This document shows, piece by piece, positions 13,712 to 61,944 of a stretch of DNA of 64,000 nucleotides. Source of the DNA: an uncultured Erysipelotrichaceae bacterium (GTDB lineage: Bacteria > Bacillota_I > Bacilli_A > Erysipelotrichales > Erysipelotrichaceae); assembly GCA_945875435.1 (NCBI GenBank), contig CAMCKH010000001.1, positions 62,001 through 126,000 of the forward strand, given 5' to 3'. A model generated the notes under the pieces. That model was not told where the DNA came from. It made no database searches and worked only from the letters and a program-made list of their open reading frames with translations. The position numbers were made by a program, and so were the translations under genes. How positions within the stretch are numbered: position 1 is the stretch's first letter; every line of letters starts with the position of its first letter.

Positions 13712-13732
13712 CTGATAATTCAGCTATTTTTT
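13707..13732 (+). terminator. Rho-independent terminator overlapping the fakA stop codon
   Basis: aatagctga taat tcagctatt forms a perfect 9-bp stem followed by TTTTTT. The TAG stop of fakA lies within the left arm. Confidence 0.85.
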
Positions 13733-13734
13733 GT

Positions 13735-13740
13735 TATAAT
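13735..13740 (+). promoter_or_regulatory. -10 element of an smc promoter
   Basis: TATAAT directly after the terminator, 17 nt before the smc ATG, with ribosome site aggtgagg between. The -35 candidate at 13712-13717 (ctgata) is weak and overlaps the terminator stem. Confidence 0.5.
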
Positions 13741-13757
13741 AAATAGGTGAGGTTTAA

Positions 13758-17963: not shown

Positions 17964-17964
17964 T

Positions 17965-20093: not shown

Positions 20094-20102
20094 AAAAAAT
20101 GT

Positions 20103-20108
20103 TATAAT
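20103..20108 (+). promoter_or_regulatory. -10 element of HU promoter
   Basis: TATAAT 30 nt upstream of the HU ATG; the -35 region is AT-only and unclear. Confidence 0.45.
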
Positions 20109-20138
20109 TTAAAAGCTGAAAAGCAAATGGAGGTTAAA

Positions 20139-20423
20139 ATGGCAAACACATTAAGCAAAAAAGAGCTAATTAATGCACTTTACGAAAAATTAGATGTTAC
20201 CAAATCAGTTGCGACTGAAGTTGTAAATACACTTTTAGATATTATTGCTGAAGAACTTAAAAAAGGAAACAAAATCGATCTTAAAGGTTTTGGTAAGTTC
20301 GAAGTAAAAGAAAGAAGTGCTAGAACTGGAATAAATCCTTTAACAAAAGAAGCAATTAAAATTCCTGCTACTAAAGCACCAACATTCAAGGCTTCTAAAG
20401 GTTTAAAAGAACTTGTTAAATAA
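20139..20423 (+). CDS. hup: HU-family DNA-binding protein
   Basis: A 94-aa nucleoid protein. The helical dimerisation region (LSKKELINALYEKL) is followed by the beta-arm signature GFGKFEVKERSARTGINP, with the intercalating proline of GINP, and the standard ending. Start at 20139 is set by ggagg 5 nt upstream; the ATG at 20127 overlaps that site. Monocistronic, with two hairpins after it. Confidence 0.95.
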   Translation: MANTLSKKELINALYEKLDVTKSVATEVVNTLLDIIAEELKKGNKIDLKGFGKFEVKERSARTGINPLTKEAIKIPATKAPTFKASKGLKELVK

Positions 20424-20447
20424 GAACTATTAAGTTCTTATTTTTTA
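20419..20447 (+). terminator. Rho-independent terminator of HU gene
   Basis: aataagaact atta agttcttatt, 10-bp perfect stem, followed by T6. The left arm includes the HU stop codon. Confidence 0.88.
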
Positions 20448-20455
20448 TATTATTT

Positions 20456-20487
20456 AGTTCGCATAATGTATATTATGCGACTTTTTT
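20456..20487. terminator. Second hairpin terminator between HU and the convergent recombinase gene
   Basis: cgcataat gtat attatgcg, extended by agt/act around a bulge, then a T tract on the + strand. On the - strand the run of T is poor, so it may be only partly bidirectional. Confidence 0.7.
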
Positions 20488-21388
20488 ATTTCAATTTTTT
20501 ATTAGCTAAAGGATGTGCTTTAAGATACTTATCCTTTATTGTATTTTTATTTATATGGGTATAAATTTGTGTAGTTTTAATATCACTATGACCCAAAAGC
20601 TCTTGAATAGATCTTAAATCAGCACCATTTTCTAATAAATGTGTTGCATAAGTATGTCTTAATTTATGTGGTGTTAAATTTTTATTGATATTCAATTCTT
20701 GAATTTTATCTTTTAAAATAACTTGTATATATTTTGTAGTAGTTTTTTTACCTAAATGATTTATAAAAAATAAATCTTTATCACTATTTTTATTAATATA
20801 AACATTCCTTATATTGTTAAAATAATAAGATAATATTTTTAAAATTTTATTAGGTATAGGTATCAATCTGATTTTATTACCCTTCCCTGTTATTTTTGCT
20901 AATTTATTTTCAAAATCGATATTATTTATTTTTAATTGACTACATTCATGAACTCTAAGCCCTAAACCATATAAAGAAACAATTAAAGCATAATGAAAAT
21001 AATCTTTATTATCATTTAAGTTAAAATTATTTAAAATATCATTCATTTCTTCTTTATTAGCGTAAATAGGAAGATTTAATTCACTTTTTCTAACCTCTAT
21101 ATTAATTGCAGGATTTTCAATTTCATATTTAAATTCTAAAAAATTATGAAATGATTTAATACTACTTTTCTGTCTGTTTATAGTATTTTTATTATTATTT
21201 TCAATATTTTTTAAAAAATTTAAGATATCTATTTTTTTTACATCCTCAATATTTAAAATATTATTTTCTTTTAAAAAATCTATGTATTTATTAAGATCAT
21301 TTTTATATGCCTTAATAGTATTTATACTTTTATTTTCATTAATATTTATAAAAATTAAAAATTCAGTTAGAGCCTTATCAATTTTCAT
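20486..21388 (-). CDS. xerD: Tyrosine recombinase, XerC/XerD family
   Basis: A 300-aa site-specific recombinase with an N-terminal SAM-like core-binding domain (FLIFININENKSINTIKAY) and a catalytic domain with the full set of residues: Arg in GLGLRVHEC, HxLRH in LTPHKLRHTYATHLL, and His and the nucleophilic Tyr in LLGHSDIKTTQIYTHI. Size and lack of mobile-element neighbours suggest the chromosomal dimer-resolution enzyme rather than an integrase; XerC versus XerD cannot be decided. The start chosen (MKIDKALTEF) overlaps the recN end by 11 bp; a 22-residue extension exists but reads through recN. Confidence 0.85.
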   Translation of the reverse strand: MKIDKALTEFLIFININENKSINTIKAYKNDLNKYIDFLKENNILNIEDVKKIDILNFLKNIENNNKNTINRQKSSIKSFHNFLEFKYEIENPAINIEVRKSELNLPIYANKEEMNDILNNFNLNDNKDYFHYALIVSLYGLGLRVHECSQLKINNIDFENKLAKITGKGNKIRLIPIPNKILKILSYYFNNIRNVYINKNSDKDLFFINHLGKKTTTKYIQVILKDKIQELNINKNLTPHKLRHTYATHLLENGADLRSIQELLGHSDIKTTQIYTHINKNTIKDKYLKAHPLANKKLK

Positions 21389-23021
21389 ATATTTTTTGAC
21401 TTTCCTGGTAAAGTTGTTTAGCAGCATTAATGCTAACTTCATTAACAATAGCACTTTGCATTATTGCGATTTCTCTTATTATTTCGTCATTTTTTAATTT
21501 TGTTATATCAGAAATAGTATTGTTGTTACTCATAGTCTTTTTAACAAAATAAATATCATTCGCAAAAGAAATTACTTGAGGACTGTGGCTTATTAATAAA
21601 AGTTGGGTATTTTTAGAAATAATTGCCATTTTTCTACCTATAGCAGCACTAACCTTACCGCTAACTCCCACATCTATTTCATCAAAAATAATTGTTTTAA
21701 TCCCAAATTTATTTGAAAGTATGACTTTTAATGATAATAAAATTCTAGAAAGCTCACCTCCTGATGCGATTTTGTTTAAAGGTTTAGGATTTTCTCCAGC
21801 ATTCAATGATATTAAAAATTCGACATCATCAATACCGTCTTCATTAAGTTCTTTTTCTTTAAATTGAATAATAAAATCATTCTTTTTAAGTTCTAAATCA
21901 CTGAGTTCATTTTTGATTAAATTTTCAATTATAGAAGCATTTTCCTTCCTTAAATTCGATATGTATTTAGCCTGAGTAAGACAAGTATCATACATTTTTT
22001 TAATCTCTTTTTCTAGCTCTGTTAAATGACTTTCTTTATTATTATAAATCTCTACTTTTTCTTTATTTTTTAAACAATAATTAAGAACTTCTTCAACATT
22101 AATTCCATATTTTCTTTTTAATTTATTATATATAAAAAGCCTTTCTTCTATTTTATCTATTTCACTATCAGTTAAATTAAAATTATTGTAATATTCTTTA
22201 ATATTATCAATGTTATCTATTAAATTATAGTATAATTCTTTAATATTATTTGAAATTTTTTCTAAATATTCGTTGTTTATGCTTAAGGTTTGATATAATT
22301 TATAAAGTGGTGTATTTATATTATTTTCAAATAATTCAATAGCTTCAGTTAAACTGCTATTTATTTTAATAAAATTTTTAATATTTTTACTTTTATCAAT
22401 TAATTCATTTTCTTCATCAATTGATAAATTAGCTTTCTCGATCTCATCAATTTCATTAATTAAATATTCAATTTCTCTTTCGTTGTATTGAGTCTCTAAT
22501 AATTCATTTTTTTTAATAATTAATTTTTTATAATTATCATAATCATTTTTAAACTTTAAAATATGACTTTCTATGTCAGAAAATTTATCGATTAACTTTA
22601 AATGGTTTTTATTCTCTAATAAATAATTACCTTCTTTCTGTGAGTGAATATCGATAAAATTTTTCATTAAAGAATTTAAAAAAACAATAGTTACACCTAC
22701 CCCATTTATTTTAGTAATTGATTTTTTATCTTTACTTATAATTTTAGTAACAATAAGATAATCATCAAATTCTATATTATTATCATTTAGAATATTTTTT
22801 ATTTCATCATTTAATTGAAAATAACCTTCAATTATAGCTTTATCTTTAAATTTCCCAACAACCTCCTTATCTATTTTATTTCCTGTCAAATAACCAATCG
22901 CATCGATTATGATAGATTTACCAGCACCAGTTTCCCCTACAAATGCAGCGAAATTGTTATTTAGTTCAATCTCTGCTTTTTCAATTAAGATAAAATTTTC
23001 TAAATATATTTTTTCAATCAT
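21378..23021 (-). CDS. recN: DNA repair protein RecN
   Basis: SMC-like ATPase for double-strand break repair. Walker A GETGAGKSI is near residue 30, coiled-coil arms fill the middle, and the C-terminal half has the signature SGGELSRILLSLK and Walker B TIIFDEIDVGVSG. Length 547 aa is normal. The start (MIEKIYLENF) overlaps the end of the dxs-like gene, as expected in the conserved ispA-dxs-recN region; gaggtggg lies upstream. Confidence 0.92.
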   Translation of the reverse strand: MIEKIYLENFILIEKAEIELNNNFAAFVGETGAGKSIIIDAIGYLTGNKIDKEVVGKFKDKAIIEGYFQLNDEIKNILNDNNIEFDDYLIVTKIISKDKKSITKINGVGVTIVFLNSLMKNFIDIHSQKEGNYLLENKNHLKLIDKFSDIESHILKFKNDYDNYKKLIIKKNELLETQYNEREIEYLINEIDEIEKANLSIDEENELIDKSKNIKNFIKINSSLTEAIELFENNINTPLYKLYQTLSINNEYLEKISNNIKELYYNLIDNIDNIKEYYNNFNLTDSEIDKIEERLFIYNKLKRKYGINVEEVLNYCLKNKEKVEIYNNKESHLTELEKEIKKMYDTCLTQAKYISNLRKENASIIENLIKNELSDLELKKNDFIIQFKEKELNEDGIDDVEFLISLNAGENPKPLNKIASGGELSRILLSLKVILSNKFGIKTIIFDEIDVGVSGKVSAAIGRKMAIISKNTQLLLISHSPQVISFANDIYFVKKTMSNNNTISDITKLKNDEIIREIAIMQSAIVNEVSINAAKQLYQESQKIYEN

Positions 23022-24744
23022 CTTTTCCCACCTCTTCCAAAAAGTTTTCAATTAGATTTTTATTGTGATTAATATTTTTTAATAAAAAATTATTTTCACC
23101 ATAATATTTAAGATTAAAATTTAATTGGTTTTCGTTTATAAATTTTAAAATATTAGGGTATAAACAACTATTTTTGTAATCTTTTGTGAATATATAATTA
23201 TTAGCTTTATTTTTAGAAATTTCCTTGATTATTTCTGAATCGATTTTAGATAAGTTAGTGGCATTTATTAAATTAATTTTTAAATTATTATCTTTGATAA
23301 TTTTTTCAATTCTAATTAATGATTTTCCATAAGTTATAATATTTTTGTTATAATCACTATCTTTAATAAGGTAAGACCATTTAAAATCTTCAGATATTTC
23401 ATAGTATTTATCGCAAGTAAAAACATCTTCAGTTTTAAAAACAACTAAATTTTTTAAATAGATTGATTTTTCTATATTTATGCATAAGTTATAAAAAGTT
23501 ATTATTGATAAGATATCAACATTTTCATAAATATTAATTCTATTAAAATAGTCTGTTCTATTGTAAGTGTTGTAAAGTGAACCACAATTATTATAATCGA
23601 TTATTAAGATAATGTTTGAGATATTAATATCTTCAATATCTATTCTATCAAATATATAATTTATATTTTTTTCATTTAAAATTATTATTTTTTTTCTATC
23701 GTTTTCTAATGTTAAAAGAGAAAATAACTCTTCCTTGCTTAAAATCTCTCCGATATTATAAAATAATTCAGAATCTTTATAATCTTTATCGACAATTATA
23801 GGGATATTATAAGTTTTTGCTAGACTATATAATTGATTAATATTTTTTAATTTTATTTTTTTTAAATCAAGTATTAATTCTCCGTTTTTTATATTAAAAC
23901 TTTCAGTAAAATTATATTTATTTCTTAAATCTAAAAATCTATATTTAAAACCTTGGGATTTATTAACTAAAATATCAACAAATTGAAATGAGAAACTTTT
24001 AATTTTTTTAAAAACATTATTTAATTCACTAATATCATGTCCGTTTTTTACAAATAAATAATTAATACCAATATTATCAAATTCTTTTTTTAAAATTATT
24101 GAGTTTCTAATATTATCTTTAAGATTTTTAATTCCATCAGAAAAATTTTTGCTGATGTCATTCTTATCGAGATTATTTTTAATAATATTTTTAATGTTAT
24201 AATAAAAATTACTAGTTCTTAATTTATTGATGTTTGAGGTTAAAATGTTAGTTTCTAAATCTTTAGTTTGAAGATTTATTATTGTTACAGGATAGTTATT
24301 GTTAGAAAATAAGTTAATTAACTCTATTTCTTCTTTTGAATATTTATGATTGTATAAATAAAAGTAGATATGTTTATTATTTTTTATAATAAAATTTTTA
24401 ATATATAATAAATTTTCATAAACACTACCCTTTAATATTTTAGTGTTATTTAATTCGATATCATAATTTTCAATCTTGTTTATTTTAAACAAATCAAATT
24501 TATTTTCTAAAAGCAATTGTGTTAAAAAAGCATGGTTATTATTATAAAAAAATAAATTATTTTCAGAAATATTTAAAAATAATGAAGTTATAACTTCTGT
24601 ATTGGCTAAATTTTCAGCTAAAAACCCGCCATTTTTACTGATTTTATCAATAATTAAATTTCTAATATCATTAATAAAAATTGATAATTCCTCATTATTT
24701 AAACTATTTAATTCAGATATATCGCTATAATTAAAAATCCTCAT
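23014..24744 (-). CDS. Degenerate DXS-like protein (1-deoxy-D-xylulose-5-phosphate synthase homologue without thiamine-diphosphate motifs)
   Basis: An uninterrupted 576-aa frame between ispA and recN, exactly where dxs lies in Bacilli. Homology to DXS is visible in order: SKNGGF (36-41; DXS has SKTGGH), NNNHAF (68-73; VGHQ), NKLRTSNFY (173-181; RTSPFY), and FDNIGINYLFVKNGHDISEL (222-241; GxNYIGPxDGHD). The GDGA and NDN Mg-thiamine-diphosphate motifs are gone: the matching stretches read HIYFYLYN (125-132) and IINLQTKD (155-162). The first catalytic His is Phe, and the pyrimidine-domain Glu region (DIGIAEQH type) cannot be found. It is therefore unlikely to make DXP. A pseudoenzyme or a slowly decaying relic are both possible. 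Asn- and Ile-rich composition points to fast drift. Confidence 0.7.
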   Translation of the reverse strand: MRIFNYSDISELNSLNNEELSIFINDIRNLIIDKISKNGGFLAENLANTEVITSLFLNISENNLFFYNNNHAFLTQLLLENKFDLFKINKIENYDIELNNTKILKGSVYENLLYIKNFIIKNNKHIYFYLYNHKYSKEEIELINLFSNNNYPVTIINLQTKDLETNILTSNINKLRTSNFYYNIKNIIKNNLDKNDISKNFSDGIKNLKDNIRNSIILKKEFDNIGINYLFVKNGHDISELNNVFKKIKSFSFQFVDILVNKSQGFKYRFLDLRNKYNFTESFNIKNGELILDLKKIKLKNINQLYSLAKTYNIPIIVDKDYKDSELFYNIGEILSKEELFSLLTLENDRKKIIILNEKNINYIFDRIDIEDINISNIILIIDYNNCGSLYNTYNRTDYFNRINIYENVDILSIITFYNLCINIEKSIYLKNLVVFKTEDVFTCDKYYEISEDFKWSYLIKDSDYNKNIITYGKSLIRIEKIIKDNNLKINLINATNLSKIDSEIIKEISKNKANNYIFTKDYKNSCLYPNILKFINENQLNFNLKYYGENNFLLKNINHNKNLIENFLEEVGKDD

Positions 24745-25571
24745 CTATGCTCCATTTTATAAATTATTTCTTTTAAATATGAAATATCAAATTTTTGATT
24801 TTCTAAAAGTTTATACACCTTAGAAAATTCAATCGCTATAATTTCCTTAAGTTCATCAACACTGTAGAAATTTAAAATTGTATTACGATTATTTTTAATA
24901 TCATTATCAGCGGTTTTTCCAGTTTCTTCTTTACTTCTAGTAACATCAAATAAATCATCTTGCATTTGAAAAATTCTACCAATCAAAATACCCAATTTTT
25001 CATAAAATTTTCTATTTTTATAATCTTTAACTATATGCATCCCGATTAAAAGTGAACATTTAAAAAGTGCACCAGTTTTAAAATCTTCAATTTTATGAAT
25101 TTCAGTTTCATTTTCTATAAGATAATTATCGGTATCTAAAGATTGACCATAAATCATACCATTAATTCCAGAATGATAACTAAGTTCTTTAATAACTGCA
25201 AGTTTTTCTTTGACAGATCTTTTAGCACTAGCTGCTATTAAAAAAGAATGAGTAAGTAATGCATCTCCGGTAAGTATAGCATCAATTTCACTATATTTTT
25301 TATGTACAGTAAGTTTACCTCTTCTTAAATCCGCATTATCCATACTAGGTAAATCATCATGTACTAAAGAATAAGAATGAATCATTTCTAATGCTAAAGC
25401 ATAACTATATGCTATTTTCTCAGGTAGATTAAATCCTTTCACAATAGAAAAAATAAGTTCAGGTCTGAATCTTTTCCCCTCTTCAATAGCGTAGTATAAA
25501 GTTTCTTTTAAGCGATAATCTTTAATATTTTTGAGTCTATTTTTAAGATAAAATTCAAAAGATTTATTCAT
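24741..25571 (-). CDS. ispA: Polyprenyl synthetase, farnesyl diphosphate synthase type
   Basis: All-alpha prenyltransferase condensing IPP with allylic diphosphates. Both Asp-rich motifs are present: HDDLPSMDNADLRRGK (first, with the two-residue insertion of bacterial FPP synthase) and QMQDDLFDV (second). About 276 aa, near the usual 290. I place the start at 25571, where ATG overlaps the xseB stop by 8 bp and gaggaag lies upstream; ATG 25577 is an alternative. Its 3' end overlaps the dxs-like gene by 4 bp. Confidence 0.9.
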   Translation of the reverse strand: MNKSFEFYLKNRLKNIKDYRLKETLYYAIEEGKRFRPELIFSIVKGFNLPEKIAYSYALALEMIHSYSLVHDDLPSMDNADLRRGKLTVHKKYSEIDAILTGDALLTHSFLIAASAKRSVKEKLAVIKELSYHSGINGMIYGQSLDTDNYLIENETEIHKIEDFKTGALFKCSLLIGMHIVKDYKNRKFYEKLGILIGRIFQMQDDLFDVTRSKEETGKTADNDIKNNRNTILNFYSVDELKEIIAIEFSKVYKLLENQKFDISYLKEIIYKMEHR

Positions 25572-50479: not shown

Positions 50480-50689
50480 TCAATTAAAATATTTACCTAA
50501 TATATCAACTATATAGTTAAGGGTTAAATGATAATGTAGTTCTTTTTTTATATTTATGCAACACACTTCTTTTTGTTTTAACACTAAAGGATTTGTGGTT
50601 ACAACTTCTTCTATGAAATATTTTCCCACAGGTAAAGTGTCATTAATTTCAATTGCTTGCAAACATTCTATTTTCTTATAATTTATCAA
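50480..50689 (-). CDS. Weak ORF, possibly a remnant, within direct repeat copy 1
   Basis: A 69-residue frame starting with TTG and no ribosome site. The frame directly upstream of the TTG (ending NNLEPNVVVTN) is closed by a single stop, so this could be the tail of a broken gene. Its 5' 60 bp are part of a 112-bp repeat whose second copy (54035-54146) gives a different, truncated frame. No family recognised. I doubt that it is a working gene. Confidence 0.25.
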   Translation of the reverse strand: MINYKKIECLQAIEINDTLPVGKYFIEEVVTTNPLVLKQKEVCCINIKKELHYHLTLNYIVDILGKYFN

Positions 50690-50740
50690 TTAATTTGTTA
50701 CAACAACATTTGGTTCTAAATTATTCTTATACTTTACAAA
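50515..50740. repeat. Direct repeat flanking the ABC operon, copy 1
   Basis: Positions 50629-50740 (112 bp) match 54035-54146 with two mismatches, and 50515-50534 match 53981-54000 exactly; copy 2 lacks about 60 bp and is diverged between these blocks. Both copies are in the same orientation and bracket the three-gene ABC operon, as if the operon arrived with duplication of the target. Confidence 0.85.
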
Positions 50741-50831
50741 CCACTTCATATATAGCATTCATAAAAACATTTATTATATGCTCATCATTTTTTCCGTTAG
50801 ATACATTCCCAAAGTATACTATCTTCTCCAT
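50727..50831 (-). CDS. Small ORF (34 aa) coupled to the ABC operon
   Basis: Begins MEKIVYFGNVSNGKNDEHII and ends EVVCKV. The ATG has gaggaa 5 nt upstream, located inside the stop region of the second permease gene, so it would be translated with it. The last five codons lie in the direct repeat, so the original gene may have been cut by the rearrangement. Function unknown: a small peptide substrate, a leader, or a truncated remnant. Confidence 0.35.
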   Translation of the reverse strand: MEKIVYFGNVSNGKNDEHIINVFMNAIYEVVCKV

Positions 50832-50833
50832 CT

Positions 50834-51502
50834 CTATTCCTCATAAAAACAATTTTTATACCAAATTAACGATGTCCAAAAACTTATAAATGAAATAAAT
50901 AGCCAAATTATTCTTGATAAAAAAATCTGTATCATTTTATCATTAAGCAAATGAATATTCTTTATAGTCATAGGTATTGTAATATAACCATTATTGTATA
51001 CAAGTAACAACAATATTACAGCATAATAGACTGTAAATACGAATAAGTTTTTCTTAAATATCAACAAAAAAGAAATAATTATATAACTCATAGCTATTAT
51101 TTCAAAAATAGTAATCATATGAAAATTAAGATATTTAAGAGACATATTCCCATTATAAACATAATTAATAAAATTAAAAAATAATTGTCCTATAGTATAA
51201 AAAACAACTTCAACAAGAAGAATAAGATTTAATAATTTCTTTATAATTAAAATCTCATCATTTGTGTATATAACCAAATAATTTTTTTGTACTTGAATAA
51301 ATTTTTGGTTCAATACACTTAATATAAACAGTGGAAGCAAAAAGATTAAAAAAACTTGCTGATTTAGTAATCTAAATAACATTGCTTCTTCAGTATTAAC
51401 TACACCTATGGATTTCATATCAATAAAACATAATATTAAAAATGATATAAAAATAAGTGTTATAAATTTTTTGTTTTTAATTAAAATATTTTTATAGCAC
51501 AC
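50834..51502 (-). CDS. ABC exporter-associated membrane protein (second permease)
   Basis: A 222-aa protein with about six transmembrane segments and little else, ending YKNCFYEE. I do not recognise a named family; position after an ABC ATPase and a larger permease suggests the second half of an ABC-2 type exporter. Start is GTG at 51502 (no ATG gives the first helix), 7 bp after the upstream stop. Confidence 0.6.
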   Translation of the reverse strand: MCYKNILIKNKKFITLIFISFLILCFIDMKSIGVVNTEEAMLFRLLNQQVFLIFLLPLFILSVLNQKFIQVQKNYLVIYTNDEILIIKKLLNLILLVEVVFYTIGQLFFNFINYVYNGNMSLKYLNFHMITIFEIIAMSYIIISFLLIFKKNLFVFTVYYAVILLLLVYNNGYITIPMTIKNIHLLNDKMIQIFLSRIIWLFISFISFWTSLIWYKNCFYEE

Positions 51503-51509
51503 TACCTTT

Positions 51510-52925
51510 TCACTCCCTCAACATATCTTCGAAAAAATTATACATATAAGAATCTTGATAAATATTTGGAAACTTTTCCTTTAGCATTTGTATAAATTCT
51601 TTGTCTGTTTCAATATTGGCATCATCAATCATTCTAACCATTCTTACCAAATCCTGCTTGTGGGTATCAGCTACCAAAATACCCACTCTTTTTACATAAT
51701 TATTTTTTGTTATAGGCGACTTTATTATGCTATCCAATTCTTTATTTATAAAATTTGATATTTCGCTATCTTCTCCAAAAGTTTCATTTATAGCTTTTGT
51801 TTTAAAAATTATTCCGCTGCCATCAATAATATGTCTAAAATATCTATTTCCATCAATATAATTTGGAATAGAGCTTTTCCATAACTCAATAATATCATCA
51901 GTATTCTTAGACACAATATCTGGCTCATTAAAATTAAGTTTCGCTAGGCTATATATATTAACTTTTAAGTTGTTTTCTTCTAATATATATTCTTTTTCTT
52001 GAGTTACAAATTTCCACAAAAGAGATGATAAAAAATCTTTCTCTATAAAATATGTTTTCACTTTACTTCCACCAAGGTCTATAAAATAATCTTGCGTTTT
52101 ATCTAAAATCTTAACTCCATCCATATAATCTAAAGAATTGATATTTTTTAAAATCACTTCTCTATTTTCAATGTTTTCAAATTGTAATGGTACATTATTA
52201 GCACCTATATACATTTTGTATTGTATTATTTCTAAAATAAATAATCCTAGAAATAAAAATATAAATAAAGCATACTTACCAAATTTTATGTACAAATGCT
52301 TTCTTTTTAGATATATAGTAAGTATTCCCATTAGTATAATTAATCCAATCTTAAATAAATTGATAATATTTATATGCCTTAAATTAAAAAGATATTCATT
52401 AACTCCTAAAAAATAAGTATATTCAGTCTGTCTATACGGATTAACTAGAAAAAAGTTATACGCAACTATGAGCATTAAGATAACAAAAGAACTTGTTTTT
52501 GATAGTGTATTTCCCAAAAATATTCCAAGCATAATAGAAAATAAATATGATAATATAGATAGTCCTAAACTTTGTAACAAATTTTGTCCAATAAAAAAAG
52601 TTTGAATGTACATACATATAAATAACGGCAAATTAAAAATGACTTGTAATAATATTAATCTACCATATTTAAAAGAGATGGGCGTTTTGTTAATTACAAA
52701 TAAACTTTCTCTTCCATTTTCCGTAAATACCTTAATTCCTACCAAACTCATCAGACTTATCCATATCAAAAGTACCAAATTTGCAGTTATTTTCATACTA
52801 AAATCTTGTAGAAATAAAACGCTTGATAGAAAAATTATCAAAGCATATGAAAATATATACATCTTAATATTTTTAAATATTTCTTGCATTTGAATTTTAA
52901 GAATATATTTCATTTCTGTTCTCAT
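51510..52925 (-). CDS. ABC-2 type permease with large extracytoplasmic domain
   Basis: A 471-aa membrane protein. About seven transmembrane segments lie in residues 1-240; the remaining 230 residues (from NNVPLQFENIENREVIL) are hydrophilic and probably outside the cell. The start overlaps the ATPase stop by 4 bp (ATGA). The ATPase-permease-permease layout resembles bacitracin/lantibiotic or peptide export and self-protection systems, but no specific family can be claimed. Confidence 0.65.
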   Translation of the reverse strand: MRTEMKYILKIQMQEIFKNIKMYIFSYALIIFLSSVLFLQDFSMKITANLVLLIWISLMSLVGIKVFTENGRESLFVINKTPISFKYGRLILLQVIFNLPLFICMYIQTFFIGQNLLQSLGLSILSYLFSIMLGIFLGNTLSKTSSFVILMLIVAYNFFLVNPYRQTEYTYFLGVNEYLFNLRHINIINLFKIGLIILMGILTIYLKRKHLYIKFGKYALFIFLFLGLFILEIIQYKMYIGANNVPLQFENIENREVILKNINSLDYMDGVKILDKTQDYFIDLGGSKVKTYFIEKDFLSSLLWKFVTQEKEYILEENNLKVNIYSLAKLNFNEPDIVSKNTDDIIELWKSSIPNYIDGNRYFRHIIDGSGIIFKTKAINETFGEDSEISNFINKELDSIIKSPITKNNYVKRVGILVADTHKQDLVRMVRMIDDANIETDKEFIQMLKEKFPNIYQDSYMYNFFEDMLRE

Positions 52926-53899
52926 ATATCTAACACCTCTTTTTTTATCCTTAAAAAATAAGCATCTTCTAAATCTGGTGTTACACTATTATCTCTATTT
53001 TCTTCACTGATAACTTTTAAATATATTTTATTTTCAAATCGTCTTATAGATATTACTCTATCCATAATCTCTTCTGGAATATTATCATTTTCATCTATTA
53101 CAAGTGTAGATATCTTCCCTTTAGCTTCATTAATAAGTTCATCTATAGCTCCAGAGTATAAAATCTTTCCATCACTCATTATTCCTATCGTATCGCAAAG
53201 AGCTGATACATCCGATATTATATGCGTTGAAATGATTATTATTTTGTCCTTCTTTATTTCATTTATAATATTTTTAAATCTCAAACGTTCTATAGGGTCT
53301 AATCCTACAGTTGGCTCATCCAAAATCAAAACTTTAGGATTTCCCAATAATGATTGAATAATAGCAACTCTTTGCTTCATACCACCTGAAAGAGATTTCA
53401 TCTGTTCTGTTTGTTTGTCAACAAGATTGAATTTATTAAGCCAGTATATTATTGAATTATTTAGTTCTTCTGATGGTATTTGTTTATTTAAACCTATGTA
53501 ATATAAAAAATCATATACTGTAAGCATTTCAAAAAATTCAAATTTTTGAGGAACATAACCTATCTGCGATCTAATTTTACTCAAATCAAATTTTGCATCA
53601 AAATCCCCTATAAATAAATCTCCATTATCAAATGGCAAAAGAGTTGCAATAATCTTTAACAAAGTAGTTTTGCCTGCTCCATTGGCACCAACTAAACCAT
53701 ATACCCCTTGCTTTATTTCTAATGAAATATTATCAAGTACTTTTCTTGCATTTCTTTTATATTGGTAGTTCAAATTACTAATGCCAATCATATATTCCCA
53801 TCCATCTACCGCACCACGAACATTATCAGCGATGCTCCATATCTTTTTGTGAAGTTCACTTCTTTGTACAGCTTCATTTGAATTATTAAAATTTTCCAC
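52922..53899 (-). CDS. ABC transporter ATPase fused to the first 34 residues of HsdM
   Basis: A 325-aa protein in two parts. Residues 1-34 ([20 protein letters not shown] and on to AVDGW) are the HsdM N-terminus of this same locus with one change (Ala11 to Val). From Met37 (MIGISNLNYQYK) it is a normal ABC-2 exporter ATPase: Walker A GANGAGKTT (71-79), SLSGGMKQR, LILDEPTVGLD, ISTHI. GTG start as in hsdM, ribosome site ggaga instead of ggagg. The native start may be Met37, but the frame is intact, so a chimeric protein is likely made from the captured promoter. Confidence 0.85.
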   Translation of the reverse strand: MENFNNSNEAVQRSELHKKIWSIADNVRGAVDGWEYMIGISNLNYQYKRNARKVLDNISLEIKQGVYGLVGANGAGKTTLLKIIATLLPFDNGDLFIGDFDAKFDLSKIRSQIGYVPQKFEFFEMLTVYDFLYYIGLNKQIPSEELNNSIIYWLNKFNLVDKQTEQMKSLSGGMKQRVAIIQSLLGNPKVLILDEPTVGLDPIERLRFKNIINEIKKDKIIIISTHIISDVSALCDTIGIMSDGKILYSGAIDELINEAKGKISTLVIDENDNIPEEIMDRVISIRRFENKIYLKVISEENRDNSVTPDLEDAYFLRIKKEVLDI

Positions 53900-53976
53900 C
53901 TTATCTCCTATACCATTATCTATTTATAATAAAATTATATCATTTTTAATAAAATAATTATAAAGTTTTATATATT
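53796..53976. repeat. 181-bp direct repeat, copy A (hsdM promoter and start, in front of the ABC ATPase)
   Basis: Matches 61724-61904 with four mismatches and no gaps, same orientation. It contains the hsdM promoter (extended -10 TGA TATAAT; TATAAT at 53934-53939), ribosome site, GTG start and codons 1-34. One mismatch is in the ribosome site, one changes residue 11, two are silent or intergenic. Confidence 0.93.
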
Positions 53977-53980
53977 GAAA

Positions 53981-54146
53981 AGTTAAGGGTTAAATGATAA
54001 ATCTATTTAGAAAGTTCTTTGTTTAAGGGGTTTTCAGGTAAAGTGTCATTAATTTCAATTGCTTGCAAACATTCTATTTTCTTATAATTTATCAATTAAT
54101 TTGTTACAATAACATTTGGTTATAAATTATTCTTATACTTTACAAA
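53981..54146. repeat. Direct repeat flanking the ABC operon, copy 2
   Basis: Partial copy of 50515-50740 (see there), placed directly after the 181-bp repeat. The whole gene-free stretch 53900-54239 holds the captured hsdM promoter, this repeat, and about 90 bp of AT-rich sequence after hsdR in which I see no clear terminator. Confidence 0.82.
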
Positions 54147-54239: not shown

Positions 54240-57239
54240 TTATATACCTACAAAAATATCCACTAATTTTCTAATTTCATCTAACACTTGAGCTTTTTTC
54301 ATTTCTCTAACACCACCCATTCTGCTAGCTTTACCAATAATATTATCTAAATCATCTCCAGCATATTCTAAATATCCTTTATTTATAGCTTTTTCTACAA
54401 ATCTTTTAGCTTCTGGTTTTAATGATTGATTTAAAATTAATTTATTAACCTCTTTTTCTTTAACTTCTTTGGCAAAATTATAAAATTCTTCTACAATATT
54501 ATCGTAATTTTTAAGTTTTAATAAGTCATTTTTATTAATAAAATCAATAATCAATTCTTCTTTAGTTCTAGTTCCAACACTTGATCTTATAGCTCTTCTA
54601 ACTTCAATTTTTAAAAGTTCAATATCATCATATTCTTTAGATTTACTAAGTATTAAATTAAGAATATAGTCTAAATTTATTTCGTTTGTTTTTAATAAAT
54701 CAATATGAAATTCTAAATCCGACATATCTATTTTTGGGAATTTTGAATCATCAGGAGAAGGAGAAGGTTTAAGTTCATCTTTAATCCCTAAATAAACACT
54801 CTTCATATCTTGCATCAATCTATCAGAAATTATTGATTCAAATTTTTCAAACTCATCAAAATTCTTTAAAATATTTTCAGTTTTTAAAAGTTCACCAAAA
54901 AGTTGTACAAACTCTCTTTTATCGCAATCAGTTTTAATTTCTGTTGGGTCAGGGAATTTAGATATTAACTCTTGGCAAATTTCTTTATACCCTTTAATTT
55001 CTTTTCCATCAATGTCTTTAAAACCATTGATATACTCATCATAACTTTTTTCCAAAATAATATTTATACTATTTTTATCACCAAAAGTTTTAATAGCATC
55101 TTCAGTATCCTTTTCAAGATCTCTAAAACAAACAATATTACCAAAAGTTTTAACTTTGTTTAAAATACGATTAGTTCTAGAAAACGCCTGAATTAAACCA
55201 TGATATTTCAAATTTTTATCCACAAACAGAGTATTCATAGTAGGTGCGTCAAAACCAGTTAAAAACATCCCTACCACAATTAATAAATCTATTTCTTTGT
55301 TTTTAGTTCTGATTGTTAAGTCTTTATAATAAGATTCAAAATTCGCGGTTGAAAAGTTAGTTTTAAATTGATGATTGTAATCATCAATAGCTTTATCTAA
55401 AAATTCTTTTGCGGTTACATTTAATAAATTACCATCAAAATTTTCTTCAACTATTTCACCAATTGTTTTAGGTTCTTCATTTGCCACAAAACTATAAATA
55501 GTAGCAATTTTTAATCTATCTTCCTCTGGAAGATCTTTTTGTTGTTTATCTATTTCTTGATAATAAAGTTTAGCAGCTTCAACACTTTGAACTGCAAACA
55601 TAGCATTAAAACCATTAATTCTTCTTTCCTTCAAAACATAATTAATATTTCTGTGTGTTTTAGTATTAAATACTTTTAAAATATGTTTTGTGATTTCGCT
55701 AATTCTTTCTGGTGCCAACAATATTTTGTTTTCTAATTTTAAAAGTTCTTTTTCATCTCTTTCAATTTCTGCACTTTTGAATTTAGGTGCTACATTATTA
55801 TAATCAACTTTAAATTTCAACACCTTACCATCTCTAATAGCATCAGTTATTACATAACTGTGCAGTTGAGGTCCAAAAATACTAGTCGTGGTTTCTACCC
55901 CTAATGCATTTTCTGAAAAGATAGGAGTACCAGTGAATCCAAATTGATAATATTTTTTAAATGATTTTCTGATATTTCTTTGTGCATCACCAAATTGAGA
56001 ACGATGACACTCATCGTATATCAAAACACAATGCTTATCATAAATTGGATGATTAGGATTCTTTTTAACAAATTCATTTAATTTTTGAATAGTAGTTACT
56101 AAAATTCTATTATCATCTCTTTCAATACACTCTTTAAGCTCTTTTGTATCTTTAGTGCTATTAACACTGTTTTCATCAAATTTTTTATATTCTAACATTG
56201 TTTGATGATCTAAATCTTTTCTATCTACTACAAAAAATACCTTATCAATAAAACTTAAAGATGTTGCGAGTCTAGCAGTTTTAAATGAAGTTAATGTTTT
56301 CCCAGAACCGGTAGTGTGCCAAATAAACCCACCAGCTTCAATATTTCCAGCTTTTTTATTTTCATAACTAGATTTTATTTTCCATAATATTCTTTCAGTA
56401 GCAGCAATTTGATACGGTCTCATTATAAGTAAGGTTTTATTGCTATCAAAAATACAATATTTAATCAACACTTCAAGAAGTACTCTTTTTTCAAAAAATG
56501 TTTTAGTAAAATCTTCTAAATCATTTATTACTTTATTTTTAGCATCAGCCCATTCACAAGTAAATTCATAATTTCCTTTACCATTTAAAGTGGTATTCGC
56601 AAAGTATCTAGTATATGTGCCATTTGATATCACAAATATTTGTACATATTTATATAAAGAATTTTCACTATTAAAACTTTCTTTTCTGTATCTTTGAATT
56701 TGATCAAAGGATTCTTTTAAATTAACCCCTCTTCTTTTAAGTTCAACATGTACTAAAGGAAGACCATTAACTAAAACAGTAACATCATATCTATTATTAT
56801 GAGTACCAATTTGTTTAACTTGGTTAGTTACTTGAATAATATTATTGTGTATATTATTTTTATCAATAATTTTAATATTTTTAACATATCCACTATCAAA
56901 AACAAAATCATAAACATAATCTTCTTGTATCTTATGAGTTTTTTCAATTACACCGTCATTTGCAACATCTAAATATTCAGATAAAAACCTTCTCCATTCA
57001 GTATTATTGAATTGTATTTGATTTAATCTTTCTATTTGTTTTCTTAAATTAAGATATAGTTCTTCATTTGTTCTGACAGTTATTCTTTCATAACCTTGAG
57101 ATTGTAAATTTTTAAGCATGCTTTCTTCAAGCTCTGCTTCGCTTTGGTATGTTTGGGGTTTTTCAATGTTATTTTTTTCAAAACTTGCTAGAATAATACC
57201 ATTTGTCATTTCAGCAACTGTTCCGTAATTATTATTCAT
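54240..57239 (-). CDS. hsdR: Type I restriction endonuclease subunit HsdR
   Basis: Motor and nuclease subunit, 999 aa. The N-terminal PD-(D/E)xK nuclease has Asp152 and VELKRR (Glu166, Lys168). The helicase has HTTGSGKT (308-315), a DEAD-like IYDECH, FTGTP, and later motifs TGFDAPTMN and QAFSRTNR. A helical C-terminal domain binds the HsdM2S core. Start ATG with aaaggaggag 2-8 nt upstream, 10 bp after the last hsdS frame. Complete, so restriction depends on whether a working HsdS is made. Confidence 0.94.
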   Translation of the reverse strand: MNNNYGTVAEMTNGIILASFEKNNIEKPQTYQSEAELEESMLKNLQSQGYERITVRTNEELYLNLRKQIERLNQIQFNNTEWRRFLSEYLDVANDGVIEKTHKIQEDYVYDFVFDSGYVKNIKIIDKNNIHNNIIQVTNQVKQIGTHNNRYDVTVLVNGLPLVHVELKRRGVNLKESFDQIQRYRKESFNSENSLYKYVQIFVISNGTYTRYFANTTLNGKGNYEFTCEWADAKNKVINDLEDFTKTFFEKRVLLEVLIKYCIFDSNKTLLIMRPYQIAATERILWKIKSSYENKKAGNIEAGGFIWHTTGSGKTLTSFKTARLATSLSFIDKVFFVVDRKDLDHQTMLEYKKFDENSVNSTKDTKELKECIERDDNRILVTTIQKLNEFVKKNPNHPIYDKHCVLIYDECHRSQFGDAQRNIRKSFKKYYQFGFTGTPIFSENALGVETTTSIFGPQLHSYVITDAIRDGKVLKFKVDYNNVAPKFKSAEIERDEKELLKLENKILLAPERISEITKHILKVFNTKTHRNINYVLKERRINGFNAMFAVQSVEAAKLYYQEIDKQQKDLPEEDRLKIATIYSFVANEEPKTIGEIVEENFDGNLLNVTAKEFLDKAIDDYNHQFKTNFSTANFESYYKDLTIRTKNKEIDLLIVVGMFLTGFDAPTMNTLFVDKNLKYHGLIQAFSRTNRILNKVKTFGNIVCFRDLEKDTEDAIKTFGDKNSINIILEKSYDEYINGFKDIDGKEIKGYKEICQELISKFPDPTEIKTDCDKREFVQLFGELLKTENILKNFDEFEKFESIISDRLMQDMKSVYLGIKDELKPSPSPDDSKFPKIDMSDLEFHIDLLKTNEINLDYILNLILSKSKEYDDIELLKIEVRRAIRSSVGTRTKEELIIDFINKNDLLKLKNYDNIVEEFYNFAKEVKEKEVNKLILNQSLKPEAKRFVEKAINKGYLEYAGDDLDNIIGKASRMGGVREMKKAQVLDEIRKLVDIFVGI

Positions 57240-57249
57240 ACTCCTCCTT

Positions 57250-57942
57250 TTACAACTTAAAACCTAAAAGTTTTTCGCGATAATATTCATATTGTTTTTG
57301 TCTTAATTCTATTTCTTTTGGTAAACCTTTTGATATGTCATTTACTAAAGCATCAAAAACATCAAGTTTAGAAACGATGTGTTCTTGAACTTTTAGTGGT
57401 GGGATGGGGATTTGGATTTTTTTCATTAATTCTTTTGATACATTAAATCTAGTAACTCCCGATGCCGTTTTTCCAATTTTTACCCTAAGAGCATCCGACC
57501 TGAATAAGTGCTTTGAAAAATCTGGCAACAACAACTCTGAATCGTTTAGTCTAAGAAAAAAGCAAAAGCTGTTCAAATATATATCTTCCGTAAATTTAGC
57601 AGTAATAACAGATGACATTCCACATTCATCTGGTGTTTCTGATGACCCTGTAAATAATATATCTCCATACATTAGTTTTCTCTGATTTTCTTCTGCTTTA
57701 ATCTTAACTTTATCTTTTACGTTTATATCAGTAGCTGGATTTAAATATACATTTTTGTATGTAATAAATTTTGCGTTACCATCATTAAAGTCTTGCTTTG
57801 ACTTTCCAGTTATTCCACCATAAAACTCTCCAATATCCCCCAACTTCTTCCACTCAACTTTTTCAAATAATGAAATTCCTACAATATCAGCAGCTTCTTG
57901 TAGTAATAGTATATATTCTTTAGGTATTATCGTGCGTGCGTG
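57250..57942 (-). CDS. hsdS: HsdS specificity module 3 (one target-recognition domain plus coiled coil, separate frame)
   Basis: A frame open from 57942 to 57250. Translation reads IPKEYILLLQEAADIVGISL, then FEKVEWKKLGDIGEFYGGIT, a TRD, and the conserved coiled-coil region IQIPIPPLKVQEHIVSKLDV, ending in a YEYYREKLLGFKL tail. It is a half-size HsdS with one TRD. The only obvious internal start is the TTG of LGDIGEF (57843) without a ribosome site, so it may need frame joining from module 2 through the GCAC repeat: one more 4-bp unit would fuse both. A translated half subunit is also possible, since half HsdS can dimerise. Confidence 0.75.
   Translation of the reverse strand, partial: HARTIIPKEYILLLQEAADIVGISLFEKVEWKKLGDIGEFYGGITGKSKQDFNDGNAKFITYKNVYLNPATDINVKDKVKIKAEENQRKLMYGDILFTGSSETPDECGMSSVITAKFTEDIYLNSFCFFLRLNDSELLLPDFSKHLFRSDALRVKIGKTASGVTRFNVSKELMKKIQIPIPPLKVQEHIVSKLDVFDALVNDISKGLPKEIELRQKQYEYYREKLLGFKL
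57269..57304. repeat. 36-bp direct repeat in hsdS coiled-coil region, copy in module 3
   Basis: Identical to 57970-58005 and encoding the QKQYEYYREKLL helix in both modules. Recombination between the two would delete module 3 and leave module 2 with an intact end. Confidence 0.85.
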
Positions 57943-58556
57943 CTAGCATATACATCGGTGAATGTCAATAGTTTTTCGCGATAATATTCATATTGTTTTT
58001 GTCTTTGTTCAATTTCCTGTGGCAGTAAACCTTTTGTATCAGAAAGTAAAGATTGAAATTTATCTAGGATTTCTGCTATTTTCTTTTGCAAACCTTTATC
58101 TATTATAGGAACAGGTAATGAGCGTATTATTTCTGAATTTAAATTACTAACTGAAGAGCTATTAATTTTCGCTTTCCAATAATTCTGAACAGTTGATGAA
58201 CTTAAAAAATGATATAAAAAATCAGAATCTAAGTATTCATCAAAATCACTTATTGATGCCCACCCATCGTGAATTGCTCCTTTTATATTTAATATATACG
58301 GTCGTCCATAACTCATTGAATTAGAGATTATAAAATCACCTTCTTTTAAAACTCTTGATTTTTTCGCTCCTTCAACTGTTATTTTTTGTGCTGTTTTGAT
58401 GACATATTTAGAATGTAATTCTATATCCCCAATCTTAATCCACGATATTCCGTTCTCATCATCAGTTAAATACTTTGAAATTGGTCTTGGTGATGCCCCT
58501 CTGTTAATTTGAGCAACTTCACCTAATGTAGTTACCCTTAATCTATACCCCCCCCG
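57927..58556 (-). CDS. hsdS: HsdS specificity module 2 (second target-recognition domain, out of frame with module 1)
   Basis: Open frame continuing module 1 after the G tract: YRLRVTTLGEVAQINRGASP starts a second TRD, followed by SYGRPYILNIKGAIHDGWAS and the coiled-coil end IAEILDKFQSLLSD and QKQYEYYREKLL. I checked every codon from the tract to the stop: none is a stop in this frame. With 9 (or 6) G instead of 8, modules 1 and 2 form one subunit of about 441 aa, normal for HsdS. In the sequence given it is separate and has no good start before the ATG at 58316. Confidence 0.8.
   Translation of the reverse strand, partial: RGGYRLRVTTLGEVAQINRGASPRPISKYLTDDENGISWIKIGDIELHSKYVIKTAQKITVEGAKKSRVLKEGDFIISNSMSYGRPYILNIKGAIHDGWASISDFDEYLDSDFLYHFLSSSTVQNYWKAKINSSSVSNLNSEIIRSLPVPIIDKGLQKKIAEILDKFQSLLSDTKGLLPQEIEQRQKQYEYYREKLLTFTDVYASTHAR
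57931..57943. repeat. GCAC tetranucleotide repeat between hsdS modules 2 and 3
   Basis: Three full GCAC units plus one base on the coding (-) strand, directly before the module 2 stop codon. Unit length 4 means each gain or loss shifts the frame; four units would join module 2 (ending in AST) to module 3 (from TIIPKE). Confidence 0.65.
57970..58005. repeat. 36-bp direct repeat in hsdS coiled-coil region, copy in module 2
   Basis: Identical partner of 57269-57304. Confidence 0.85.
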
Positions 58557-59251
58557 AGGATTTCTGGGTTTTCAGACAATTTATTCAAATATTCTTCACT
58601 TAATAATAAATTTCTATAATATTCATATTGTTTGGTGCGTTGCTGTAATTCAGCCTGTAATTCAGCCTGTAATTCAGTAACATAACTTGTGAATTTGTCA
58701 AGTATTTCTACTATTTTTTGTTGGGTTTCTAATGAGGGGATGGGGATTTCTAACTCCTCAAGTTTATTCTTTCTTATTCCTGCTAATGTACTGCCTTTAA
58801 GTGATTTTTTTATTTCATTCTGTATAAAATCAGACCTTAAATAATAAACTAAATATTTGGGTACTATGTTTTTTTTATTTGGCTTTAACACAAATGTAGA
58901 CTCATTCACATCAAAATTATTTGGTTCAACTTCTACAAATGCTATTTTTCCTACTGTTCCTACAGCAGAAAACAAAATATCGTTTATTTGAAGTTTGCTT
59001 CTTTTATTTATAAGGTTTCTTGCTTTTTCCGTTATTCTAGCAGTTTTACCATCAATAAATTCTATAACTTCATTACTAGAATAATCTTTAGTTGTAATGT
59101 ACCACGAAGTTAATTCTTCGTCGCTTGAATCATTTAGTTTAAAATTTTTTCTTGGGTTTAAACCAGTCGTAACAGATATACAAACATCTTTTTCTCCAAG
59201 TTTTCTCCACTCAACTTTTTCATTTTTCAATAATTCATCTATCTTACTCAT
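58538..59251 (-). CDS. hsdS: HsdS specificity module 1 (first target-recognition domain; truncated by frame at the G tract)
   Basis: 237-aa half of a type I specificity subunit. Start ATG 59251 overlaps the rhuM stop; [20 protein letters not shown] is the usual HsdS N-terminus. One TRD follows, then LEIPIPSLETQQKIVEILDK and a coiled coil with the ELQA repeats (TELQAELQAELQQRTKQYEYY). The frame ends GGGID just after the G8 tract. As given it encodes only one TRD; with one more G it continues through module 2. A half subunit may still form a dimer with a palindromic target. Confidence 0.85.
   Translation of the reverse strand: MSKIDELLKNEKVEWRKLGEKDVCISVTTGLNPRKNFKLNDSSDEELTSWYITTKDYSSNEVIEFIDGKTARITEKARNLINKRSKLQINDILFSAVGTVGKIAFVEVEPNNFDVNESTFVLKPNKKNIVPKYLVYYLRSDFIQNEIKKSLKGSTLAGIRKNKLEELEIPIPSLETQQKIVEILDKFTSYVTELQAELQAELQQRTKQYEYYRNLLLSEEYLNKLSENPEILGGGID
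58548..58555. repeat. Homopolymer tract G8 (coding strand) between hsdS modules 1 and 2
   Basis: Eight C on the + strand, i.e. eight G in the coding strand, in a genome region where G runs are rare. It lies exactly at the joint of the two modules and sets the frame between them. Confidence 0.9.
58643..58678. repeat. 12-bp tandem repeat (three units) in the hsdS spacer, encoding ELQA
   Basis: ctgtaattcagc twice, then ctgtaattcagt on the + strand. Each unit adds four residues (ELQA) to the spacer helix between TRDs, without frame change. This parallels the TAEL repeats of EcoR124-type HsdS, where repeat number sets the spacing of the two half sites. Confidence 0.88.
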
Positions 59252-60257
59252 CTTTTTTTCCACCCTTTTTAGCAAGTTGCTCTATGCTTTTAATTTCTGC
59301 TAAGTAGTCTTTTTCAACAGGAGAAAGATTTTCATCCTGATATTTTCTATATTCAAAAAGAGCCTTTTCCATTGCTTGTTTATGACTGATTTTACCTGCA
59401 TCTTTTAATACATCTTCCCCTGTAGATGTAAGGATTTTATCCAAAGTTTCCACATAATCACTCATGTACATAGGCTTATGTTTCATGGCTTGCATTTCTG
59501 CAATTTCAAAGTAACCTGATACAAGTTTGTTTAGTATCTTTAATTCATCTTCCGTAAGATAGTTTTTGGCAACTCCTATATCTTTCTTTGTAGGAAAAGC
59601 TCCTGAAAAAGTAGTAAGACCCATAAATTCTTTAGTGCTATCTGCTCTTTTATAAATTAATTCTGCTGATGTTTGTCCATGTGCTGCATAATGTAATTTA
59701 TTTTGCACTGTCTTGAAAAATGCTATGGATTCTCTACTCTTGGGGTCATAATCTATACTGGTTGCATACAAGTCCAAAACCTGTCTATACATAACTTTTT
59801 CACTTGAACGAATATCACGAATTCTATCTAAAAGTTCTTTAAAATAATTGCCTCCTCCAAGATTTTTGAGTCTTTCATCGTCCATAGAAAAACCTTTGAT
59901 TAAGTATTCTTTTAATATCGTTGAGGCATAGTTTCTGAATTGTACCCCACGAACAGAACGCACTCTGTACCCGATTGCCAAAATCATATCCAAATTGTAA
60001 TAAGCCAATTTTCTTGTTTGAGTTTTTGCCAAAATGGCACCATGTTCAGTGGTATGCAACTTATAGTTGCATACCATATTCTCGTATAATTCACCGTCAT
60101 CGAATATATTTTTAATATGTTTAGCTATATTTTGTCTTGTGCTCTGAAAAAGCTCAGCAAGCTCCTTTATGTTTAACCAAACTGTTTCATCTTCTACATG
60201 AAGTTCTATTTTTGACTTTCCATCTTCCGTATTGTATATAATAAACTCATTACTCAT
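59244..60257 (-). CDS. rhuM: RhuM family protein
   Basis: A 337-aa protein of the RhuM (virulence protein/KilA-related) family: [20 protein letters not shown] and [20 protein letters not shown] form an N-terminal DNA-binding-like part, then [21 protein letters not shown] and [16 protein letters not shown], which are typical. RhuM genes are frequent inside type I R-M loci, but their job is not established. It overlaps hsdM by 8 bp and hsdS by 8 bp, so it belongs to the operon. By eye this gene is richer in G+C than the flanking core genes, suggesting transfer. Confidence 0.88.
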
Positions 60258-61827
60258 CTTCCAGCTCCTTTACTATTTCGTTTATGGATGCTCTAAGATT
60301 ATCTATTTTCTTGACAGTTTCTTCAATTTCTTTATTTAAAACTTTAATATCTATGATTTCTCTTGTATCTTCTTTTTCTACATAAGTTGATACCGAAAGA
60401 TTATAATCATTTTCTTCTATTTCACTATTATCTACATATCTTGAGAAATACTGAATACCTTCTCTATTTTTAAATTCTTCTATAATATTTAAAATATTCT
60501 TTTCTTCTAAAATATTATTGTTAGTCTCTTTTTTAAATTCTTTGCTGGCATCAATGAAAAGAACTTGATTTGAAATTTTATTTTTTGCTAGCACTAAAAT
60601 ACATGTAGCAATAGAAGTTCCAAAAAATAAATTTTCTGGCAACTGAATAACACAGTCCACAAAGTTATTATCTACCAAATACTTACGAATCGTTTGTTCT
60701 GCACCTTTACGATAAAAAATACCAGGGAAACATACTATCGCAGCTCTTCCCTTACTAGAAAGATGGTTTAAAGAATGTAAAATGAAAGCATAATCAGCAT
60801 AAGATTTAGGAGCTAATTTACCTGCTGGTGCAAAACGATCATCATTAATCAAAGTTGGATCATCATCTCCAATCCATTTAATTGAATATGGTGGATTAGA
60901 TACGATCGCATCAAATGGTTTTTCTTCTTTATGAAGTGGATTTAATAAAGTATCACCTCTTTTAATTGAAAAGTTATTATAGTTTATATTATGCAAAAAC
61001 ATATTCATACGAGCTAAGTTGAAATTAGTCATATTAATTTCTTGTCCATAAAATCCTTCTTCAATTATATTTTCGTCAAATTGTTTTTTCATTTGAAGCA
61101 ATAAAGATCCACTACCACATGTTGGATCATATACTTTGTTAATATTACTTTGTCCTTCCACAACTAATCTAGCTAATAATTTAGATACACTTTGAGGAGT
61201 AAAAAATTCTCCACCAGATTTTCCAGCATTACTTGCATAATTAGAAATTAAATATTCATACGCATCTCCAAAAGCATCAATATCATTATTTTTAAAATCT
61301 TTAAAGTTGATTGATGCTATTCCAGTTAAAATATCAGTCAATCTTTTATTTTTTTCTGCTACTGTACCACCTATTCTACTGCTAGTAGTATCAAGATCTT
61401 CAAATAAACCTTTAATATCTGCTTCTGAAGAAAAACCCACAGCACTAGCTTCAATGTCTTTAAAAATAGCAGCAAGGTCAGTATTTAAGTTTTGATTATC
61501 TTTAGCATTTTTAACTACATTAATAAATAATTGACTTGGAAGTATGAAAAATCCCTTATCTTCCACTGTATTTGGTCTAAAGTATTTATTTGCATCTTCA
61601 TCACTAATATCTGCATAATCAAACTCTTCATTACCAGCTTCTTTTTCGGCTTTATTAAAAAATTCGGTTATATTTTCTGAAATAAAACGATAAAACAATA
61701 TCCCTAATATATATTGTTTAAAATCCCATCCATCTACCGCACCACGAACATTATCGGCGATGCTCCATATCTTTTTGTGAAGTTCACTTCTTTGTGCAGC
61801 TTCATTTGAATTGTTAAAATTTTCCAC
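60250..61827 (-). CDS. hsdM: Type I DNA methyltransferase subunit HsdM
   Basis: N6-adenine methyltransferase, 525 aa. N-terminal helical domain ([20 protein letters not shown], then [16 protein letters not shown]), SAM site DPTCGSGSL (234-242), catalytic NPPY (311-314), and a C-terminal coiled coil that joins HsdS. The start is GTG with ggaggtaag upstream; the N-terminal 34 codons and promoter are duplicated before the ABC ATPase. First gene of the operon hsdM-rhuM-hsdS-hsdR. Confidence 0.94.
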
Positions 61828-61904
61828 CTTACCTCCTATACCATTATCTATTTATAATAAAATTATATCATTTTTAATAAAATAATTATAAAGTTTTATA
61901 TATT
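61724..61904. repeat. 181-bp direct repeat, copy B (native hsdM promoter and start)
   Basis: Original copy of the repeat at 53796-53976. It includes the hsdM promoter: extended -10 TGA TATAAT (TATAAT at 61862-61867 on the - strand), with no good -35. Direct repeats 7.9 kb apart allow excision of nearly the whole R-M locus. Confidence 0.93.
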
Positions 61905-61944
61905 TAAAAAATCATCAAAATTTTAAAATCAGTGCAATTCTTTC

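Follow-up and report, generated by a model that had tools for sequence, protein, structure and literature searches.

A copied hsdM start in front of an exporter ATPase gene: probable promoter capture at a duplicated type I restriction-modification locus

The stretch of DNA analysed here (64,000 nucleotides, referred to as the window) contains an ABC exporter whose ATPase gene opens with the upstream region, ribosome site, start codon and first 34 codons of hsdM, the gene for the methyltransferase subunit of a type I restriction-modification (R-M) system. A preliminary description of this DNA had proposed such an hsdM-derived start, and the repeat shared with hsdM supports the proposal. The arrangement is probably the outcome of promoter capture by in-frame fusion inside an R-M locus that was duplicated, gutted and littered with mobile-element remnants. 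This reading is supported by the doubling of both edges of the locus, by the IS30-like end at the junction and by the truncation of a fourth gene of the exporter operon; the second duplicated edge, the IS30-like end and the truncated gene had previously been overlooked. The exporter-hsdM fusion is best read as a natural case of a known accident, promoter capture, and not as a new regulatory system. The features discussed are listed in Table 1.

Table 1. Features of the R-M and exporter units, given as window positions
Feature	Position	Strand	Basis
D1, intact hsdM upstream region, ribosome site, GTG start and first 34 codons	61724..61909	-	reference copy of repeat
hsdM, 525 aa, EcoR124II-like type I methyltransferase subunit	60250..61827	-	PF02384, HsdM_N
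RhuM-family gene within the R-M operon, between hsdM and hsdS	59244..60257	-	PF13310, E 1e-104
hsdS region, three ORFs (245, 129, 197 aa) with stops between	57250..59275	-	Methylase_S in each
hsdR, 999 aa, EcoR124_C type	54240..57239	-	
D2a, 112-bp edge past hsdR, with a short Cna-B gene fragment at its end	54035..54146	-	98.2% to 50629-50740
IS30-like element end, outer end CCCTTAACTTTTCA, last A at 53976, touching D1'	53977..54034	-	recurs elsewhere in genome
D1', copy of hsdM upstream region, ribosome site, start and 34 codons	53796..53976	-	97.3% over 186 bp, E 2e-85
Fusion ATPase, 325 aa; leader residues 1-36, ABC domain from Met37 (53791)	52922..53899	-	PF00005, homologue starts, structure model
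Membrane protein, 471 aa; 7 hydrophobic segments in N-terminal half, then soluble part; overlaps ATPase stop	51510..52925	-	
Membrane protein, 222 aa; 6 hydrophobic segments	50834..51502	-	
Start of fourth operon gene (MEKIVYFGNVSNGKNDEHIINVFMNAIYEV), broken off at D2b	50741..50831	-	
D2b, second copy of 112-bp edge, after exporter operon	50629..50740	-	sequence comparison
Remnants: Cna-B fragment 50653-50577; IS30 transposase fragment 50583-50531; truncated IS end about 50532-50514	50513..50653	-	

The shared segment is a repeat of 186 bp on the minus strand (53796-53981 against 61724-61909) that is 97.3% identical, with five mismatches (E = 2e-85, 314 bits in the within-window comparison). 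Since direct repeats scored no more than 42 bits in five copies of the window generated by a first-order Markov model, this repeat is not due to chance. The outer border of D1' is better placed at 53976, the TTTT past this position being shared with the IS end, and up to that border the 181-bp match with four mismatches that was originally reported is confirmed (53796-53976 against 61724-61904). The match spans the GTG at 53899, 34 codons and two further nucleotides. Its coding changes relative to hsdM are two silent substitutions and one Ala12Val, and the ribosome site reads GGAGA in place of GGAGG (53904), an alteration that had also been pointed out correctly. Within-window comparison of the exporter unit gave no remnants of hsdS, of hsdR or of the part of hsdM past codon 34.

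Along the minus strand the order is D1, hsdM, the RhuM-family gene, the split hsdS, hsdR, D2a, the IS end and D1', followed by the ATPase gene, the genes of the 471-aa and 222-aa proteins, the cut-off fourth gene, D2b, a Cna-B fragment and an IS30 fragment (50583-50531), past which lie an IS-end fragment, a small ORF and valS. The R-M genes stand between one pair of D1 and D2 edges and the exporter genes between the other. D2a and D2b differ at 2 of 112 positions (1.8%) and D1 and D1' at 5 of 186 (2.7%), and this similar divergence is as expected if the edges were duplicated together. Among the remnants after D2b, the Cna-B piece is 94.8% identical to C11:21926-22002 and the transposase piece 90.6% identical to C12:9335-9387, and the IS-end remnant matches the IS end exactly over 20 bp.

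The sequence that separates D2a from D1' is found again in the genome at C1:206027, at C12:8846 and in part at C6:9204. In the C12 copy the IS end lies about 190 bp past the stop of an IS30-family transposase gene (NF033563, 209 bits, cut-off 80), and fragments of IS30 transposase also occur at D2b and at C1:206 kb. A related IS30 in another genome, G125, is present in four near-identical copies with a similarly long tail after the stop that ends in CTTGAAATTTTCC or similar, and an IS30 relative in genome G017 has TTGACATTTTCA within its 3' tail. Only one end of the element is recognisable; a possible left end of the C12 copy, TGAAAGGGGG, is a weak match.

The R-M locus encodes HsdM and HsdR of the EcoR124II-like type I kind, with hsdS in three ORFs, and the hsdM product scores 705 bits against EcoR124II M over 11-523. 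Of the three hsdS ORFs, that of 245 aa corresponds to an N-terminal half, that of 129 aa to a C-terminal fragment and that of 197 aa to a second C-terminal half, and a 70-bp repeat is found at both C-terminal ends (57266-57332 and 57967-58036). Decay of an S gene would explain the split, as would an array of alternative half-S genes. The RhuM-family gene (59244-60257) corresponds to PADLOC PDC-S05.

The exporter operon combines a complete nucleotide-binding domain with two membrane subunits of 7 and 6 hydrophobic segments. The predicted export function is taken from the type of the ATPase, as the membrane proteins had no family match in Pfam, NCBIfam or PADLOC. For the 471-aa protein there was no match at E 1e-3 in samples of the family (196 genomes) and the class (395 genomes), the best match in the order sample (316 genomes) lay only near E 3e-3, and the viral contigs and plasmids searched held no relatives; the 222-aa protein gave weak partial matches only. 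The exporter DNA opens directly at the start of the ATPase gene; at its other side, the fourth gene begins a few bases past the stop of the third and ends after about 30 codons at D2b. The ATPase alone, on the other hand, has thousands of matches among ABC proteins, with identities of up to about 40%. At about that identity stand the DrrA/GldA-like ATPases of plasmid ABC operons in Priestia and Geobacillus, where the ATPase gene likewise has two companions, a large gene and one of about 215 codons whose product is close in size to the 222-aa protein. The gene order differs, the ATPase being first here, and the neighbours of those ATPases share no sequence similarity with the membrane proteins of this exporter.

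The claim that the hsdM start is fused in frame to a complete ABC domain just before Met37 is borne out, the frame being open for 325 aa from the GTG at 53899 through a complete ABC domain (PF00005, E 3e-31). GTG1 and ATG37 are the only in-frame starts within the first 40 codons. A Zymomonas homologue has its first residue aligned exactly with Met37, and those from Priestia and Geobacillus begin no more than a few residues away; because homologues begin at or near Met37, leader residues 1-36 are an addition. The leader represents the start of an EcoR124II-like HsdM. In a structure model, the ABC fold is confident from residue 38 (pLDDT about 90) and the leader is a helix outside the ATPase fold at low confidence (pLDDT mostly 48-69). 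The simplest outcome at the protein level is an ATPase that would carry the leader as a passive tail of 36 residues.

The best sigma-70-like match at the ATPase gene, TTAACT-18-TATAAT (10/12), has its -35-like hexamer (53986-53981) within the IS end and its -10 (53962-53957) within hsdM DNA, and the intact hsdM upstream region has no such -35. An outward -35 in an IS end, 16-18 bp from a resident -10, is the layout of an IS hybrid promoter, and the consensus match has it. Such matches come from consensus scoring in AT-rich DNA, where they are common (7 found against 5.2 expected). The ATPase gene is probably transcribed from this predicted hybrid promoter, from other -10 sites in the copied segment, or from both. 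The preliminary description had the exporter driven by the R-M promoter; this stands for the -10, the ribosome site and the start codon, which come from hsdM, but not for the -35, which sits in the IS end and is absent at hsdM, and for that reason the promoter may be a hybrid and not simply the R-M promoter. The predicted Shine-Dalgarno (SD) duplexes are -7.3 kcal/mol at GTG1 of the ATPase (AGGAGA), -11.5 kcal/mol at hsdM and -6.0 kcal/mol at Met37. An adjustment of expression level through the altered ribosome site, as had been suggested, is unsupported, the change being one SD substitution in a segment with few changes.

How the arrangement may have arisen can be set out as follows. The R-M unit or its flanks would have been duplicated beside mobile-element sequences, after which the interior of the second copy would have been lost, with an exporter fragment in its place. 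One of the junctions would have joined codon 34 of hsdM to the ATPase gene just before its own start, in frame by chance, so that the exporter operon would have come to follow a ribosome site and start codon already in place, that is, in a state of promoter capture. Small independent deletions may then account for the different Cna-B and IS30 continuations of D2a and D2b. The order of these events can only be inferred, because a single genome represents the genus and the genomes searched contain no clear relatives of the permeases. Some observations fit less well: the absence from the second unit of traces of hsdM past codon 34, hsdS and hsdR means that full duplication and replacement are not seen directly, no source was found for the first 85 bp or so of D2, and an intermediate was seen in no relative.

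Another possible, though less probable, account is that R-M and exporter are alternative cassettes, carried between D1 and D2 by different strains, and that exchange between such strains, with crossing over at the common edges or at IS ends, placed both in tandem. This would require no duplication within one genome and is consistent with identical edges flanking different cargo, with IS-end remnants in the same direction after each unit and with the copy divergence of 2-3%, which fits separate strain histories. However, the join between ATPase and hsdM still demands an illegitimate fusion at some time, and the single genome of the genus offers no single-cassette strain for comparison. A chimeric contig, in which exporter and hsdM start were brought together by misassembly, is a very improbable explanation. 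The genome is a draft of 20 contigs and the borders fall at repeats of 112-186 bp, as an assembly artefact might have it, but the copies differ (by 5 and 2 substitutions) where a misjoin via the repeat would leave them identical, the arrangement takes in an IS end as well as two separate edges, and the exporter permease is single in the genome, so there is no other copy to misjoin.

The remaining alternatives concern what the copied segment does. It had been suggested that the fusion coordinates R-M and export, which would mean that an HsdM-derived tail or a shared promoter links the expression of both. The open frame and intact ATPase motifs, retained after about 3% divergence of the leader, point in this direction, as do the ribosome site and -10 region common to hsdM and the ATPase gene. 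Nevertheless, this is highly unlikely: the 34 residues fall far short of the 135 model positions of HsdM_N and include no folded HsdM domain, the isolated helix is of low confidence, it is the IS end and not hsdM DNA that lies further upstream, and there are no relatives from which conservation could be read. An in-frame join is in itself no evidence of function, as it arises by chance in one case out of three. With regard to translation, the start is most likely the GTG at 53899, as judged from the predicted signals, with Met37 a possible second start. A start at Met37, so that the leader is not made and the hsdM-derived DNA serves only as promoter and 5' untranslated region, agrees with the start position of the homologues and with the possible SD at that codon but is rather unlikely, given the stronger SD of GTG1 at good spacing and the presumable use of the equivalent start by HsdM.

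Promoter capture by gene fusion has been described in Pseudomonas fluorescens wrinkly spreaders (PMC4395868), and duplications at the Salmonella his locus with activation of transferred genes are discussed in PMC11111574. What these have in common with the present case is that a silent or foreign gene gains the promoter and start of another gene, sometimes in frame, by deletion or tandem duplication; here, the donor upstream region and first codons are in frame with an acceptor whose own start lies inside the fusion. The present case differs in that it occurs in a natural genome with an IS30-like end adjoining and both edges of the donor locus doubled, and in that it is read from sequence alone. 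Hybrid (fusion) promoters of the IS30 family, for example those of ISAba125 (PMC9330008), likewise join an outward -35-like hexamer in the IS end to a resident -10, whereas here the IS is a remnant, the resident -10 comes from the copied hsdM fragment and activity is only predicted. In deletion-born fusion genes (PMC12803068) the start of one ORF is also joined to another ORF through loss of the intervening DNA; in contrast, the genome here still has an intact copy of the donor hsdM, and essentially the whole of the acceptor ATPase is present. Most known cases of promoter capture by fusion come from laboratory evolution, and a natural case that keeps both doubled edges, the in-frame join and the IS end at the border makes the route readable. 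It also calls for caution in naming such genes by an N-terminal match and in reading regulation into a shared leader.

The IS-end motif ATCATTTAACCCTTAACTTTTC has five exact copies, mostly shortly upstream of the promoter-like sequence of a gene in the same direction, and the genes downstream of it are tRNA-His, a MetN-like gene, an ORF before valS, two C6 genes and the exporter. When up to three mismatches are allowed, seven of nine matches lie upstream of a gene in the same direction. A promoter-upstream target preference or a regulatory role is possible, and promoter-upstream targeting of the TnGBS kind was considered as a parallel for these positions. As a regulatory site the motif was set aside: the sequence common to three of its copies reaches further upstream by about 30 bp or more, and one copy lies 3' of an IS30 transposase gene.

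A comparable copy was found at C1:206303-206745, where 443 bp repeat C11:19401-19843 at 99-100% identity and comprise the promoter, ribosome site and about 118 codons of a gene for a CHAP-like secreted protein (a name given from the sequence only). Its start is separated by about 4 bp from a preceding TTAACTTTTCA, an 11-mer that forms the outer part of the IS end and has only two occurrences on the two strands of the window, and the copy is followed by pieces of Cna-B and IS30 and by an IS end. Two promoter-plus-leader copies beside sequence that resembles an IS end may point to a recurring process, for which two cases are a lead only. It is quite doubtful that an IS30-like end moves or copies DNA one way, carrying with it the promoter, ribosome site and first codons of the adjacent target. 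If it did, the hsdM leader at the exporter and the CHAP-like leader on C1 would be two products of the same kind of transfer, and the genome would be seeded with ready-made promoter-plus-leader modules that activate any gene at the landing site.

The mosaic at C1:206019-206745 consists of the CHAP-like start, a 63-bp Cna-B fragment, a 139-bp fragment of IS30 transposase and the IS end, and stands before a T-box-like leader and the MetN-like ABC gene. On C11, the region from about 12800 to 25000 holds Rep-, ParA- and ParB-like genes, followed by the CHAP-like gene and a very large gene for a surface protein with Cna-B-like repeats, and by eye it looks like an integrated or free plasmid-like element.
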